Assembly: GCA_022614805.1 (NCBI GenBank)
Contig: JAKEHY010000012.1
Span: 1-37,555, forward strand
Direction of reading: 5' to 3'
DNA: 37,555 nucleotides
From: Candidatus Zixiibacteriota bacterium
GTDB lineage: Bacteria; Zixibacteria; MSB-5A5; DSPP01
The notes under the pieces are model-generated. The model was not told the origin of the DNA. It did not search any database and worked only from the letters and a program-made list of their open reading frames with translations. A program made the translations under genes and the position numbers. Below, piece after piece: positions 7,898 through 29,902 of the stretch. Position 1 is the stretch's first letter, and each line of letters begins with the position of its first letter.

Positions 7898-8614
7898 ATG
7901 GCAGAAGCGACAAAAGTTGACGTCCCCGGCTTGACTGAGTATATAGAAAAAATTGCCGGGTGGAACATTGATGATTTAGCAGAGCGCAAGGAACTCGGCA
8001 TTATTAACTTTACTACTGCCAAGGAAACACTCCGAAAAGCCCAAGCGTTATTTAGGGAACTTCAAATTTTGCCGGTGCACTTACTACCGGAAGATGAGCT
8101 ACCAACCTTGAGCAGCCTAACACAACAAGTGTCCTCTACGTTTGATCAGATGGCCTCGTTCTCGATAGAAGGACCAAATCCCACCCAGAGGCGAGATGTT
8201 CTCATCACTCAACTACAAAACACCTACAGCAAAGCATATAAGGAATTTGGAAGATGGCTTGGTTTTCTTAGCTACAAAAGTACAAACGTTCAGGAGGCCG
8301 CTCGTGCGTTGAACGAAGCGGTGGTTGGGGCTAAGAGGGAGCTTGAAGGAGTCGTATCGTATGTTTTGGAGATGAAAAAGCAGGCCGATTCCATCGTAAA
8401 CGCTATGAAGGAAGCGGCGGCGACGGTTGGGGTGGGGCACTATAGCACCCGTTTTGAAGACGTTGCGAAGAAATACGCCAAGGACAGTAAAGGATGGTTA
8501 TGGGCAGCACTTGGGTTTGCCACAGTAGCGGTGATAGGTGCAATTCTTTCTGCGATTTTTTGGCCTCTCCCGGAGAATCTAAGGGAAATGGGGGGTCGGT
8601 GTTGCAACACGTAA
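7898..8614 (+). CDS. Hypothetical two-helix membrane protein, N-terminal part (frameshifted)
   Basis: The frame gives 238 residues, mostly helical and charged with likely coiled-coil stretches, then one clear membrane helix near the end (WLWAALGFATVAVIGAIL). After that the reading loses sense and stops within 11 codons of the GGGGGG run. The next frame (8596-8922) continues with a second membrane helix and a conserved-looking tail, so the natural protein is probably about 341 residues. The join point is G GGG GGT at 8590-8596, either a one-base deletion, a sequencing error in a homopolymer, or a -1 ribosomal slip site. I do not know a function. The DNA is visibly more AT-rich than its neighbours, which hints at horizontal acquisition. 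Confidence 0.6.
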   Translation: MAEATKVDVPGLTEYIEKIAGWNIDDLAERKELGIINFTTAKETLRKAQALFRELQILPVHLLPEDELPTLSSLTQQVSSTFDQMASFSIEGPNPTQRRDVLITQLQNTYSKAYKEFGRWLGFLSYKSTNVQEAARALNEAVVGAKRELEGVVSYVLEMKKQADSIVNAMKEAAATVGVGHYSTRFEDVAKKYAKDSKGWLWAALGFATVAVIGAILSAIFWPLPENLREMGGRCCNT

Positions 8615-9334: not shown

Positions 9335-9524
9335 AGCTATAATTTCTATTCAGCCGGATTGAAAATCCGGCTTACGATGATAGTTTTGTCCCGCCATCTG
9401 GATGGGACTTTACGAGCCGGATTGAAAATCCGGCCTACGAAGAAAACAGACCCGGGCTGCCAGCGAAGAGGGCTTTACAAGCTCTATGGAACTTTTTATA
9501 TTGCCGCCACAAGGAGGAGGAAAA
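9335..9524 (+). repeat. Paired palindromic repeats with CYTACGA tails
   Basis: Two copies of a palindrome with arms GCCGGATT and AATCCGGC around GAA lie at 9353-9371 and 9416-9434, 63 bases apart. Each is followed by CTTACGA or CCTACGA. Between them GTCCC (9389-9393) and GGGAC (9404-9408) form another inverted pair. The unit belongs to the same arm/arm/CTACGA family as 347-369, 10728-10750 and 27681-27703. A strong ribosome site, AGGAGGAGG at 9512-9520, ends the spacer. Confidence 0.75.
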
Positions 9525-10217
9525 ATGGAAGGTCTGAACGAACTGAAAAATCTGATACGGGAAAAGAGCATACTGAAGCACCCATTCTATAAAGCTTGGG
9601 CGGTGGGGTTATTGTCGCAGGAAGATTTGCGGCGCTATGCCTGCCAGTACTACCACCACGTGCGGGCATTTCCGACCTACGTGGCGGGGATTATCGCCAA
9701 TTGCGAGAGCCCGCGCCTGCGGTCGATTTTACTGGAAAACCTGAATGATGAGGAAGGTTCGACGCCGACCCATCTGGATTTGTGGGTGAATTTTAGCCAG
9801 TCGCTGGGGCTTTCGCGCAGTGAAATGGAAAGTTCGGAGGTTTATCCGGAGACACGCAACTTCGTAGATTCCTTCAAAAACCTGACTCGCAACAGTTCGG
9901 CGCCAATCGGAGCGGCGGCTTTGTATGCCTATGAGTCGCAGATTCCGGCCGTTGCCTATGAGAAAATCGAGGGACTGAAGAAATACGAGTACGGCTCCAA
10001 CCTAAATGTGACTTTCTTTGCCGTTCACCAGGAAGCGGACGTGCGGCATACGGCCGATTTGGAAAAAGTCGTGGCGACAGCGCATCCGCAGGAGGAAACG
10101 AAAGCGGTTGCGGCTGTTCATCAGATTTTGAACGGGTGGTGGGGGCTTTTAGACGGGGTTTTGGAACGGTCGGCGGAGCTGAAAGAGAAAGTGGCCGCTT
10201 GCGAGATGCTGCAATAG
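9525..10217 (+). CDS. CADD-family di-metal oxygenase-like protein, possible p-aminobenzoate synthase
   Basis: The 230-residue all-helical protein belongs to the TenA/PqqC-like fold and closely resembles Chlamydia CADD. The metal-ligand pattern is complete: Glu76, His83, Glu137, His168, Asp172 and His175 (NDEEGSTPTHLDLW, YAYESQIP, HQEADVRHT). Tyr22 in HPFYKAW and Lys147 in YEKIEGL line up with the CADD tyrosine and lysine reported to supply, respectively, the ring and the amine of p-aminobenzoate in a self-sacrificing reaction (Tyr27 and Lys152 in C. trachomatis, numbering from memory). It may thus feed folate synthesis without PabABC. ATG 9525 is chosen for its AGGAGGAGG site; an in-frame ATG at 9486 lacks one. 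No other folate gene lies in the window. Confidence 0.85.
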   Translation: MEGLNELKNLIREKSILKHPFYKAWAVGLLSQEDLRRYACQYYHHVRAFPTYVAGIIANCESPRLRSILLENLNDEEGSTPTHLDLWVNFSQSLGLSRSEMESSEVYPETRNFVDSFKNLTRNSSAPIGAAALYAYESQIPAVAYEKIEGLKKYEYGSNLNVTFFAVHQEADVRHTADLEKVVATAHPQEETKAVAAVHQILNGWWGLLDGVLERSAELKEKVAACEMLQ

Positions 10218-25378: not shown

Positions 25379-27415
25379 TTACGAGCAGGGAAAAGGGATG
25401 CTCGAAAATACGGCGGCCAACTCGGTGACGATGTCGGCGCCACTAAACCTCCCATCGCAGTTGACGTCGGCAAGGCAGAACGGGCAGTTGCCGCTTTCTT
25501 GAAACACGCAGATAACCAGCGAAACCACGTCGGCGGCGGTGAAGTTGGCATCTCCGTTCAAATCGCCTCTTGCGGCCGGACAAACCAGGGGTTGAATGCT
25601 CCGAAAAACGCCGCCGTCCTCGGTGCCGGCGAAAATCTGCCCGCTTGCATCATTGATGGCCAGGGAGTAAACCGACGTATGGGTCAATCCGGCATTGAGG
25701 GGTGCCCAAGTATCCCCATTGTCCGTGGAATGAAAAACGCCACCCCCTTCCGTCCCGGCAAAAATCTCTCCGCTTGATTTTATAAGCAGAGTCAGGATTT
25801 CCGCATTGGTCAAGCCGGTATTGACCGGCGTCCAGTTCTCCCCGTTATCGGTGGAGCGAAACACCCCGCCGCCATCTGTGCCCGTAAAGAGGTCACCGGC
25901 CGAATTTACCGCCAGGGCATAGATGTCGAAATTAGTCAAACCGGTATTGACCGGAGTCCAGGTAGCTCCATTATCGGTGGAGCGAAAAACACCATCCCCT
26001 TCAACGAAAAAGTTAGTGAAAGTGCCAGCGAAAATCTCTCCGCTCGATTTGATAGCCAAAGCCCGTACAAATACAAAAGTGTCCGACAAACTGGTCTGGG
26101 TCCAGCTGTCGCCGTTGTCGGTTGAGCGAAACACGCCGGCGTACTGATCGCCGGCGAAAATATGTCCCGCTGGATTGATGGCAAGGGAATAAACGTAGAA
26201 GGGAGGTGGAGGGAGAAATGTCCAGTCAACCCCATTATTGGTAGAGCGATAAATGTAAGCGTTCGCTGCAAAAATATGTCCGCTGGAGTTGATGGCGAGA
26301 GCCTGGGTAGCATAATTCTTAAAATCGATGAAAATCCAGTTGTTTCCGTTATCCGTGGAACGAAAGAGACCCGGGCTACTATAACCCTCTCCCGTTCCAG
26401 CAAAAATCTGCCCACTGGGATGGACGGCCAAAGACAGAACCACAGGCGCCGGCAAGCCGATTTGGGTCCAGCTCGCTCCGTTGTCCCCGGAGCGAAAAAC
26501 CCCCTGGCCCGTGCCGGCAAACATCTCCCCGCTGGAGTTGATGGCAAAGGAATAGACCGCTCCGTCTGCAAAATCGGGTTTGACCGAGCTCCAGCTTTCC
26601 CCATTGTCAAGGGAGCGAAAAATTTCCCCGCTATAAGTTCCGGTTCCGGCAAAGAGATGGCCGCTGGAATTGATAATTACCGGTCTGACGTAGAGGTTCA
26701 GCAGGCCGGAGTTGATTTCGGTCCAGCTTGCTCCATTGTTCGTGGAACGAAAGATGCCGCCTCCCCAGGTGGGAGCGAAAATATCGCCGCTCGAATTAAT
26801 GGTTATCCGATGAGCAAGGAGATTGGTCATACCGGTGCTGACGGACGTCCAGTTGGCACCGTTATCGGTGGAGCGGAAAACCCCGCCACCAAAAGTGCCG
26901 GCAAAAATCTCCCCGCTGGAGTTGATGGCCAACCCGCGCACGTCGAGATTGGTCAGGCCACTATTGACCGGCGTCCAGTTATCCCCGTTATTTGTAGAGC
27001 GAAACACTCCGCCACCATAGGTCCCCACAAAGATTTCTCCGCTCGAATTAATGGCGACCGCAAAAACATGAGTGTTCGTCAGGCCGGTTATGACCGCTGT
27101 CCAGCTATCCCCGTTATCCGTGGAGCGAAACGCTCCCCCGGCTGTGGCGGCGAAAATGTGGCCGCTGGAATTGATGGCAAAAACGTAGACCGAGGGAGCT
27201 GTCAGGCTGGTTTTGGTCCAGTTTTCGCCATTATCGGAGGAGCGAAAGACGCCATCGCCATCAGTCCCGGCGAAGATGGTCCCGTTTGGATGAACGGCCA
27301 CAGAAAAAACATCCAAGCCGAAGGGACCATTGGTCTTTTCCCAAAAGTCCTCGGCGTTTACCTCGTTGGCCGCCACAAGGACGGTCGCCAGCAAAAAGTA
27401 ATAAAGCTTTTTCAT
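25379..27415 (-). CDS. Secreted BNR/sialidase-type propeller repeat protein with C-terminal dockerin-like domain
   Basis: The 678-residue protein has a signal peptide (MKKLYYFLLATVLVAANEVNA), then thirteen repeats of 43-49 residues plus a closing half unit. Each unit carries (F/Y)RSTDNG-x-x-W and SSG-x-IFAGT, the Asp-box pattern of BNR propeller blades; fourteen blades would fit two seven-bladed propellers (inference). The last 66 residues hold two calcium-loop helices, DLNGDANFTAADVV and DVNCDGRFSGADIV, as in type I dockerin repeats; such tails are common on secreted proteins of FCB lineages and need not mean a cellulosome. AAGGAGG lies five bases before the ATG. The substrate or role is unknown; catalytic residues of sialidases are not evident. 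Confidence 0.9.
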   Translation of the reverse strand: MKKLYYFLLATVLVAANEVNAEDFWEKTNGPFGLDVFSVAVHPNGTIFAGTDGDGVFRSSDNGENWTKTSLTAPSVYVFAINSSGHIFAATAGGAFRSTDNGDSWTAVITGLTNTHVFAVAINSSGEIFVGTYGGGVFRSTNNGDNWTPVNSGLTNLDVRGLAINSSGEIFAGTFGGGVFRSTDNGANWTSVSTGMTNLLAHRITINSSGDIFAPTWGGGIFRSTNNGASWTEINSGLLNLYVRPVIINSSGHLFAGTGTYSGEIFRSLDNGESWSSVKPDFADGAVYSFAINSSGEMFAGTGQGVFRSGDNGASWTQIGLPAPVVLSLAVHPSGQIFAGTGEGYSSPGLFRSTDNGNNWIFIDFKNYATQALAINSSGHIFAANAYIYRSTNNGVDWTFLPPPPFYVYSLAINPAGHIFAGDQYAGVFRSTDNGDSWTQTSLSDTFVFVRALAIKSSGEIFAGTFTNFFVEGDGVFRSTDNGATWTPVNTGLTNFDIYALAVNSAGDLFTGTDGGGVFRSTDNGENWTPVNTGLTNAEILTLLIKSSGEIFAGTEGGGVFHSTDNGDTWAPLNAGLTHTSVYSLAINDASGQIFAGTEDGGVFRSIQPLVCPAARGDLNGDANFTAADVVSLVICVFQESGNCPFCLADVNCDGRFSGADIVTELAAVFSSIPFPCS
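25600..27360 (-). repeat. Tandem propeller-blade repeats at DNA level
   Basis: Units of roughly 130 bases recur through the gene. Each contains, on the upper strand, variants of CGTTATCGGTGGAGCG and CCGCTGGAATTGATGGC. The similarity is strong enough to see by eye and makes this stretch prone to recombination and to assembly collapse. Confidence 0.85.
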
Positions 27416-27832
27416 CGGTTCCTCCTTTTTATTTTAGAAAGACCAATTACCAAGCGGGAAGGCGGGCTTTTTCCCAAAAGCTCCTTTCTCGTTATTTATG
27501 CGAAGTATCAAATTAACTATCTGCCCCGCGGCTGTCAAGTGAAAAATGCCCGGCTTGGAGCCGGCGGGTGATTCGCTTGCGGGGTTATCCTAACTGAAGC
27601 ATTGAGTCGTTGAATCCTTTCATCATTATTTAGGACCGCGCCCGTTTTTCTTGTTCATAGGCGGCACCTCCAGCGCCGCAGCCGGACTGAAGTCCGGCCT
27701 ACGGCCTCACTGCGACCTCACCCCTCCCTCCCCTCTCCGCAGAGTGGAGAGGGGAGGGCAGGCTCCCCTCAATTTCGCTCGGGGCAAGCGGGGGCCTGCC
27801 CCTACGAGTACAAAAAGAAATAAAAGACCGGG
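27416..27832. repeat. 417-base spacer between the two propeller genes, with promoter and repeat mosaic
   Basis: The right half of the spacer holds arms GCCGGACT/AGTCCGGC plus CTACG (27681-27702), the palindrome CCCCTCTCC-N7-GGAGAGGGG (27730-27754), a CTCGGGGCAAG module (27768-27788) and arms GGGCAGGC/GCCTGCCC followed by CTACGA (27756-27806). The left half holds the promoter of the gene ending at 25379. No coding frame is convincing. Confidence 0.7.
27510..27538 (-). promoter_or_regulatory. Possible promoter of the dockerin propeller gene
   Basis: On the lower strand, a perfect TTGACA (complement of 27533-27538) is followed after 17 bases by TAATTT (complement of 27510-27515). It lies about 95 bases before the start codon. 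The -10 box is poor, but the same TAATTT form occurs at 7884. Confidence 0.4.
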
Positions 27833-29866
27833 CTATTGACTTCGGAACACGCTGCTGCCGTCCGTTCCGGCGAAAATTTGCCCGCTGGAAGGCGCAGCCA
27901 GCGACAAGATGAAAGGGTCTGTCAGACCGTCATTAACGCTCGTCCAGGTGGCGCCGTTATCGGCGGAGCGCAAGACTCCGTTCCCGTATGTTGCAGCCAG
28001 GATATGGCCGCTGGAGTTGATGGTCAGGGCAGTGACGACGTGAATGGGCAGCCCCACGGCCTGCCAGTTGGCCCCGTCATCGGTGGAGCGGAAAATCCCG
28101 CGGTCCGTTCCGGCAAAGATGTGACCGCTGGAATTCACAGCGACGGAAATAACCGAGGTATTTGCCAAATCGAGGGGAGTCCAAGTGGCGCCATTGTCCG
28201 TGGAACGGAACACTCCTCCCCCAAGGCCACCCTCATAATAGTCTATTCCTGTCCCTGCCAGAATATGGCCGCTGGGGTTGATGGCAAGGGAGAGCACAAA
28301 GTCATTTCTTAAGCCGCTGTTGCCCTGTGTCCAGCTGGCGCCGTTGTCGGTGGAGCGATAAACGCCGTCGTTTGTTCCGGCAAAGATATGCCCGCTGGAA
28401 TTGATGGCCAAAGCATAGACGGAAGCGTAAAAGGAGGAATCGGAGCCGAGGCCGGTTGGTTCCCAGCTTGCTCCGTTATCGGTGGAGCGGAAAACGCCGT
28501 CGTAACCGGCTCCGGCGAAGATATGGCCGCTGGCGTTGATGGCCAGGGCATAAATGTAGGCTCCCAGGCCGGCCGCCGTCCAGGTGGCCCCGTTGTCGGT
28601 GGAGCGGAAAAGGTCACCGCCGGGATATTCCCCCGTCCCGGCGAAGATATCGCCGCCGGAATTGACGGCCAGAGACAAAACCCGGGCGACAGGCAGGCCG
28701 GTGCCGGTCCAGCTGGAGCCGTTATCCGCCGAGCGTAAGACACCGCTGCCGAAACTCCCGGCCAGAATGTTTCCGTTTGGAGCCACGGTCAGCGAGGGGA
28801 TGGAGGTGCCGGCTGGTTTGACGAATGTCCAACTGGCGCCGTTGTCCGTGGAGCGAAAAACGCCGCCGGAATCGGTATGCGAGGAAGCTTTGGATAAAAC
28901 GGAATGGTCTTTGCGCAGGCTGGAGAAAACCTCGAAATATGCTTCTGCCGTGGCGGTTTTTCGGGGTGTGGGGCCGCTTTGGATTTGCTTACCGAAGAAG
29001 CCGCCGCCCTGTGTTCCGGCAAAAATATCGCCGTTGCCATTGACGGCGAGAGATAGGACTCCCGAACTGGGGAGGCCGTTATTGACGGCCGTCCAACCGG
29101 TTCCGTTGTCGGTCGAGCGATAGACTCCGCCGGGCGAATAATAGTCCCCGGGAATGCCGATAAAAACGGTGTCTCCGCCGGGTTTGAAGGCGAAAGTATA
29201 GTCATATCTAAAGGGGGGGAGTCCGGTGTTAGCGGTGTCCCAGCTTGCTCCATTATCGGTGGAGCGGAAAACGCCAGCGTTGGTTCCTGCAAAAATTACG
29301 CCGCCCGGCTTGGCGGCCAGGGCATAAACGGAATTGACGTAATAGGGATACCCCAGGCCGCTGTCGGCGGCGGACCAACTGGCGCCATTGTCGGTTGAGC
29401 GGAAAATTCTGGCAGAACCGTAATAGGTCCCGACAAAAATATGCCCGGAACCATTAATGGTCAGAGCCGAAACCTGACCGGTTACGCCGCTGCCGACAGA
29501 AATCCAGCTGGTTCCGTTATCAGTGGAGCGATAAACCCGCCCGCTCGCCACAGCAAAAATATCTCCGCTGGAATTGATGGACAGGTCGCGGATATAATAC
29601 TCATCCGCCAGACCTACCAACACCCAGCTGGCGCCGTTGTCCATAGAGCGATAAACGCCGTTATAGGTTCCGGCAAAAATATGGCCGCTGGAGTTGGCGG
29701 CCAGCGAGGTAATCTCTCCCGCATAAGGGCCTTTGGTTTGTTGCCAGGAAATGGCGGCCGGAGGAGAAGGGTTCGGAGCCATCGGCGATTTCTTTTCGCT
29801 GCAAGCGGTTAGTAGAAGAATGGCGGGAATCAGCAACCAGCCCGATAGTTTTAGCCAATGGTTCAT
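27833..29866 (-). CDS. BNR-type propeller repeat lipoprotein
   Basis: The 677-residue protein begins MNHWLKLSGWLLIPAILLL and then TACSEKK, a lipobox with Cys as the first mature residue, so it should be anchored to a membrane. About thirteen Asp-box blades ((F/Y)RSTDNG-x-x-W, SSGHIFAGT) plus a closing half unit follow. It is clearly a paralogue of the downstream dockerin protein but has no dockerin. Around residues 290-333 one blade contains a non-repeat insert of about 40 residues rich in K, S and T. ATG 29866 is chosen because GGAGG precedes it and it leads straight into the signal; the frame extends eight codons further. Function unknown. Confidence 0.9.
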   Translation of the reverse strand: MNHWLKLSGWLLIPAILLLTACSEKKSPMAPNPSPPAAISWQQTKGPYAGEITSLAANSSGHIFAGTYNGVYRSMDNGASWVLVGLADEYYIRDLSINSSGDIFAVASGRVYRSTDNGTSWISVGSGVTGQVSALTINGSGHIFVGTYYGSARIFRSTDNGASWSAADSGLGYPYYVNSVYALAAKPGGVIFAGTNAGVFRSTDNGASWDTANTGLPPFRYDYTFAFKPGGDTVFIGIPGDYYSPGGVYRSTDNGTGWTAVNNGLPSSGVLSLAVNGNGDIFAGTQGGGFFGKQIQSGPTPRKTATAEAYFEVFSSLRKDHSVLSKASSHTDSGGVFRSTDNGASWTFVKPAGTSIPSLTVAPNGNILAGSFGSGVLRSADNGSSWTGTGLPVARVLSLAVNSGGDIFAGTGEYPGGDLFRSTDNGATWTAAGLGAYIYALAINASGHIFAGAGYDGVFRSTDNGASWEPTGLGSDSSFYASVYALAINSSGHIFAGTNDGVYRSTDNGASWTQGNSGLRNDFVLSLAINPSGHILAGTGIDYYEGGLGGGVFRSTDNGATWTPLDLANTSVISVAVNSSGHIFAGTDRGIFRSTDDGANWQAVGLPIHVVTALTINSSGHILAATYGNGVLRSADNGATWTSVNDGLTDPFILSLAAPSSGQIFAGTDGSSVFRSQ
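27840..29740 (-). repeat. Tandem propeller-blade repeats at DNA level, second gene
   Basis: Blade units of about 130-150 bases share GTTGTCGGTGGAGCG and GCCGCTGGAATTGATGGC variants with each other and with 25600-27360. The pattern is broken by a non-repeat stretch at about 28868-28999. Confidence 0.85.
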
Positions 29867-29902
29867 AATTGGTCCTCCTTCTCCGGCCAAGACCGCCGGG
29901 TT

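Follow-up and report, generated by a model that had tools for sequence, protein, structure and literature searches.

The open frame at positions 9525–10217 (+) of the window, by which the whole analysed stretch of 37,555 nucleotides is meant, probably encodes the p-aminobenzoate (pABA) synthase of the cell, a predicted self-sacrificing enzyme of 230 aa of the CADD/PabS kind that would stand in for PabB and PabC. We assign this reading a probability of roughly 0.88, based on comparisons of sequence with the family profile TIGR04305 and with CADD in the PDB, on the overlay of a structure model, and on the pABA genes of the genomes in which such proteins occur.

The reaction, its single turnover and its metal are what we infer from the enzymes of Chlamydia and Nitrosomonas. 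By analogy with these, O2 would be activated at a dimetal site (Fe/Fe or Fe/Mn) held by Glu76, His83, Glu137, His168, Asp172 and His175, following which the oxidising equivalent would travel via aromatic residues to Tyr22, the side chain of which would be cut off to become the ring of pABA, leaving Gly behind. Lys147 would supply the amine, both carboxylate oxygens would come from O2, and each protein molecule would work once, with its pABA product passing on to dihydropteroate synthase (DHPS, encoded by folP). It has to be noted that, at an identity of ~37% to the CADD of Chlamydia trachomatis, an altered reaction is possible.

The sequence-only reading had presented the occurrence outside Chlamydia as the novelty, which is contradicted by the biochemical proof already reported for PabS of Nitrosomonas europaea (NePabS, NE1434), a protein that rescues E. 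coli delta-pabABC and of which Tyr25 and Lys159 are consumed (PMC11965152). The same source lists CADD enzymes in Wolbachia, Rickettsia, Chloroflexi, Sphingomonas and Nitrosomonas, and non-chlamydial enzymes that consume the same pair of residues are described in the available text of PMC11965152, PMC13108848 and PMC1971073. The window gene is thus a good new example of an enzyme type already known outside Chlamydia, and what is new here is the Tyr/Phe pair at the metal-selecting positions, the copies of the class falling outside a single clade, and the strength of the ribosome sites.

Conserved residues and metal-selecting positions

The window protein scores 231.3 bits with the CADD-family profile TIGR04305 (curated cut-off 200, E 9e-69), which places it in the family named by the sequence-only reading. 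The top matches in a sequence search of the PDB are the CADD entries 1rcw (CT610), with E 7e-44 across residues 3–214 of the window protein, and 8va9, followed by 9pj4, the chain of which is named 4-aminobenzoate synthase. A chance occurrence of the residues described below is not credible given the E value of the profile match.

In the alignment with 1rcw, Y22, E76, H83 and E137 of the window protein correspond to Y27, E81, H88 and E142 of CADD, and K147, H168, D172 and H175 to K152, H174, D178 and H181. The six dimetal ligands, three His and three carboxylates, are therefore all present, encoded (all on the + strand) at 9750–9752 (Glu76), 9771–9773 (His83), 9930–9935 (Glu137, together with the preceding Tyr136) and 10026–10049 (His168, Asp172 and His175, as HxxxDxxH). 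The codon of Tyr22, the predicted ring source (CADD Tyr27, NePabS Tyr25), lies at 9588–9590, that of Lys147, the predicted amine donor (CADD Lys152, NePabS Lys159), at 9963–9965, and that of Tyr38 (CADD Tyr43, NePabS Tyr41) at 9636–9638, with the roles taken from PMC11965152. Mutagenesis reported in that paper has Tyr25, Tyr41 and Lys159 of NePabS as essential and Tyr45 and Trp99 as helpful, and the window protein has all five, as Y22, Y38, K147, Y42 and W87.

A second alignment of 35 rows, comprising the window protein, 28 loci from an exact 8-letter-match search, five same-class rows and PDB 9pj4, agrees with the first in confirming the six ligands, Tyr22 and Lys147 at the CADD positions where they had been placed from the sequence alone. 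Y22, Y38 and Y42 are invariant (35/35), with the conservation of Y22 and Y42 being partly ascertained, since all 28 loci were recruited by an 8-letter match that included one or the other. The columns of K147, kept in 33/33 rows that reach it, and of the metal ligands are free of this ascertainment; the ligands are kept in all rows covering them with a single exception, the replacement of E76 by Ile in L027 (34/35), and the five rows without an 8-letter match keep every covered residue. As a separate observation, a cysteine occurs within the last 12 residues (219–230 in the window protein) in 19 of 31 CADD proteins, as compared with ~11% expected from the Cys content, and it is absent from the eight full-length Pelagibacteraceae rows; a redox role for this C-terminal cysteine is possible.

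Two further positions are reported to set the metal, with NePabS (Phe148/Phe177) preferring Fe/Fe and CADD (Tyr141/Tyr170) preferring Fe/Mn, and with the F148Y variant of NePabS being about equally active with either, i.e. cambialistic (PMC11965152). In the window protein the first position is Tyr136 (in 9930–9935) and the second Phe164 (10014–10016, +), an intermediate state that is the same as that of NePabS F148Y, and by analogy with this variant the window protein is predicted to be cambialistic for Fe/Fe or Fe/Mn. Tyr/Phe is also the commonest state among the relatives, accounting for 21 of the 32 rows covering both positions (9 are Tyr/Tyr, one, L027, is Leu/Tyr and one, 9pj4, is Phe/Phe), and the second position has changed at least three times on the tree. 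In the available text of PMC11965152 this genotype is studied only as the NePabS variant, and the window protein and its relatives could serve as test proteins for what sets the metal.

Likeness to CADD thus extends over the family model, the fold, the six ligands, the sacrificial Tyr and Lys and the equivalent of Tyr141, and the difference lies in Phe164, where CADD has Tyr170, apart from the overall identity given above. NePabS, in turn, shares with the window protein a non-chlamydial host, the sacrificial Tyr and Lys, the equivalents of Tyr41, Tyr45 and Trp99 and, according to PMC11965152, Phe at the second metal-selecting position, whereas the first is Phe148 there and Tyr136 here. The related 9pj4 has extra residues after residue 59, which the window protein lacks.

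pABA genes in CADD-bearing genomes

The genome to which the window belongs (2.56 Mb, 38 contigs, 93% complete) encodes DHPS (315.4 bits, cut-off 162.6) elsewhere than CADD, and since DHPS is present pABA is needed. Its sole chorismate-binding protein is TrpE, which reaches 557.6 bits against a cut-off of 517.7, as compared with 352.6 (cut-off 408.55) and 284.5 with the PabB models, and the gene of which adjoins a trpG/pabA-type gene and trpD. No PabB was found among the chorismate-binding proteins of this genome, and no PabC was found in it either, its single Aminotran_4 protein being IlvE (441.9 bits, cut-off 279). The presence of folP with no PabB found is a trait typical of CADD genomes, if not strictly defining them, and is seen here in an assembly that is 93% complete. 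On the pabA side, the TrpG of the trp operon could serve both pathways but is without a PabB partner. The proposal of an alternative folate route in a presumably free-living lineage, which had been tied to a lack of pabA, pabB and pabC, is accordingly supported in part, with no PabB or PabC found next to DHPS but with a pabA-type gene present as trpG.

Taken alone, the absence of PabB from this assembly is weak evidence and may reflect a gap, because the assembly is 93% complete and rpoB was not found in it. The congener G001 (99% complete), however, has CADD, DHPS and a haem-copper oxidase, with TrpE only as chorismate-binding protein, and this pattern speaks against the missing pabB being an assembly gap. 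The window's own genome likewise encodes one haem-copper oxidase, and a complex I operon adjoins the CADD region, both of which are in keeping with a cell that respires and can spare O2.

The survey was extended to 28 CADD genomes, six of them of the same class (G000, G001, G002, G011, G131 and G021, the CADD of the last being a contig-end fragment) and 22 standing behind the 8-letter-match loci, of which six Pelagibacteraceae loci were left out; where a locus is named, its genome is a MAG or was assembled from a single cell. Ten of the 28 have no chorismate-binding protein, and the remaining 18 have 22 matches, of which 21 could be classified, 18 with TrpE as best model, three as isochorismate synthase and none as PabB, with the last match, a 23.8-bit sliver in G149, falling below the cut-off. 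Among the TrpE matches, two of Rickettsiella type lie below the TrpE cut-off (424.2 and 417.3 vs 517.7), and those of L101 and L102 are fragments. Classified in this way, the chorismate-binding proteins of the 28 CADD genomes include no PabB. As a control, all three same-class genomes without CADD (G003, G009 and G017) have one protein each with PabB as best model, at scores slightly under the cut-off of 328.4 (290.6, 324.1 and 312.2).

The comparison also flags same-class genomes without a recognised pABA source: 42 of 132 have DHPS, with no chorismate-binding enzyme (TrpE, PabB, MenF) and no CADD, as for example G004, G005, G010, G013, G014, G016 and G018, and therefore the lack of PabB in the class does not alone require CADD. 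Seven such genomes fall in a sample of 20, with a haem-copper oxidase in three and none in four.

Since these 42 genomes manage without a detected pABA route, they lend some weight to an explanation in which the window gene encodes a CADD-like HDO that carries out another oxidation, on a small-molecule substrate, while pABA is salvaged from outside. The many reactions performed by UndA, BesC, HrmI, FlcD and PolF, all of which are among the fold matches of the structure model, point the same way. A small-molecule oxidase would not, however, be expected to need Tyr38, Lys147 and the other residues specific to the self-sacrificing reaction, all of which are kept, and such an explanation also sits poorly with the count of no PabB among 28 CADD genomes, which leaves it improbable.

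Even less probable appears an origin of pABA in a side activity of TrpE/TrpG, by which aminodeoxychorismate would be made and then finished by an unrecognised lyase, leaving CADD a minor or moonlighting part. There are bacteria in which a single TrpG supplies both routes, and the window's own genome does have TrpE next to a trpG/pabA-type glutamine amidotransferase. The TrpE, however, scores as an anthranilate synthase far above its scores with the PabB models, the only Aminotran_4 protein is IlvE and, beyond this genome, G002 and G011 have CADD and DHPS with no chorismate-binding protein.

The preferred reading, that of a CADD/PabS-type pABA synthase, would add to the indications that, in many unrelated lineages, a pathway of two to three genes is replaced by a single protein that depends on O2 and consumes itself.

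Fold and related enzyme families

The AlphaFold model of the window protein (26 sequences; mean pLDDT 96.7, pTM 0.92) overlays 1rcw with Z 31.8 and an rmsd of 1.3 Angstrom over 212 aligned residues, and 8va9, the Fe/Mn form, with Z 31.6, so that the fold is closest to that of CADD, with PqqC as the next fold family at Z 25.7. A placement of Tyr22 away from the metal site had been named as grounds for giving up the assignment, and this test was misstated: nearness to the metal is the wrong measure, because the sacrificial Tyr of CADD itself sits ~14 Angstrom from the metal site (PMC11965152).

The likeness to PqqC, BesC, UndA and HrmI is one of fold (Z 22–26), and the window protein scores low on the equivalog models of the first two, PqqC (TIGR02111; 59.7 bits, cut-off 240) and BesC (NF042919; 59.8 bits, cut-off 500), reaching neither cut-off. 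A PqqC or TenA acting in PQQ or thiamine metabolism, which would share the fold and the Pfam family PF03070, can practically be dismissed, as the PqqC score falls far short while the CADD profile is passed, and the dimetal ligands and the sacrificial residues are present.

Ribosome site, spread and neighbourhood

The 230-aa frame starts with ATG 9525 and ends with the stop at 10215–10217, and an alternative longer frame opens upstream at ATG 9486. The start at 9525 is preferred on the basis of the placement of the Shine-Dalgarno (SD) element AAGGAGGAGG (9511–9520, +), which serves it, and of the congener protein, which has an equivalent start with a similar site. The element forms the strongest anti-SD duplex among the 17 window starts compared, which bears out the strong ribosome site noted earlier. 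A palindromic repeat, GCCGGATTGAAAATCCGGC, is present in two copies closely upstream of the gene (9353–9371 and 9416–9434).

Strong sites are also seen across 26 CADD loci, where the mean fractional SD rank of CADD relative to neighbouring ORFs is 0.23–0.29 with three background cut-offs, as compared with the 0.5 expected. The first background held doubtful ORFs, and these values are from a rerun in which the length limits were stricter. The effect also holds there when each clade is represented by a single row (15 loci, hand-chosen, with predicted ORFs and starts), in which case the mean rank is 0.24, 0.27 and 0.32, and the simulated p 0.00014, 0.00044 and 0.006, for background ORFs of at least 150, 250 and 350 aa. 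Exceptions are L004 and L008, in which no site was found, and the archaeal loci L025–L027 have weak sites (first background); the score of L063 was -12.1 in the first run and -6.1 in the stricter one because the start window differed. The very strong site of the window gene would be accounted for by a stoichiometric demand of pABA on protein, and the strong sites of CADD genes in general fit a need for one protein per pABA; strong ribosome sites also have other causes. No paper on the SD strength of CADD genes was found among open-licence papers, to which the literature search was confined, and the window protein and its relatives could also be used to ask whether single turnover marks gene expression.

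The TIGR04305 cut-off is passed in 5 of 132 same-class genomes. A tree built from 32 proteins pairs the window protein with that of G001 (support 100/100), while the G002 copy groups with Pseudomonadota copies (96/94) and the G011 copy with a Bryobacteraceae copy (96/89). A single clade for the copies of the class is rejected (p-AU 0.0016) and one for the order (window/G001 plus G002) is not (p-AU 0.134), in tests for which the group was chosen after seeing the tree and in which several rows are long-branched. This patchiness suggests, without proving, separate acquisitions. For comparison, rpoB of the congener is 72–74% identical on shared columns to that of class-mates and 60–67% to the rows of Proteobacteria, Marinimicrobia, Bacteroidetes, Acidobacteria and Chloroflexi, the Verrucomicrobia row having too few shared columns. 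More tentatively, and at slightly less than even odds, CADD may be seen as a mobile, one-gene replacement of PabB/PabC that entered respiring lineages on many occasions, with an exceptionally strong SD in different phyla as the genomic signature of a protein that is its own substrate, and with mostly Tyr/Phe enzymes, predicted to work with Fe/Fe or Fe/Mn.

Clustering with folate genes, as described for ct610 (PMC1971073), was rejected for the window gene, since none adjoins CADD in the window. The flanking genes encode a helicase, a TPR-bearing Ser/Thr kinase and an Mrp/ApbC-type protein; two overlapping frames that match no family are also present, and from there nuoA onward follows. The congener retains helicase, CADD and nuoA, and in the 16 kb surrounding them neither the kinase nor the Mrp gene nor the frame at 7898 was found; relative to L062, the window segment 2997–8614 holds the kinase-TPR gene, the Mrp/ApbC-type gene and a family-less frame between helicase and CADD that were not found at this place in the congener. 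Three more neighbours of same-class CADD copies gave no family match, and of the others the G002 copy adjoins a predicted ABC permease/CPBP protein and the G131 copy cysK and IMP dehydrogenase. Elsewhere in the window, two large sortilin/BNR-repeat proteins are encoded next to each other at 25379–29890 (-).
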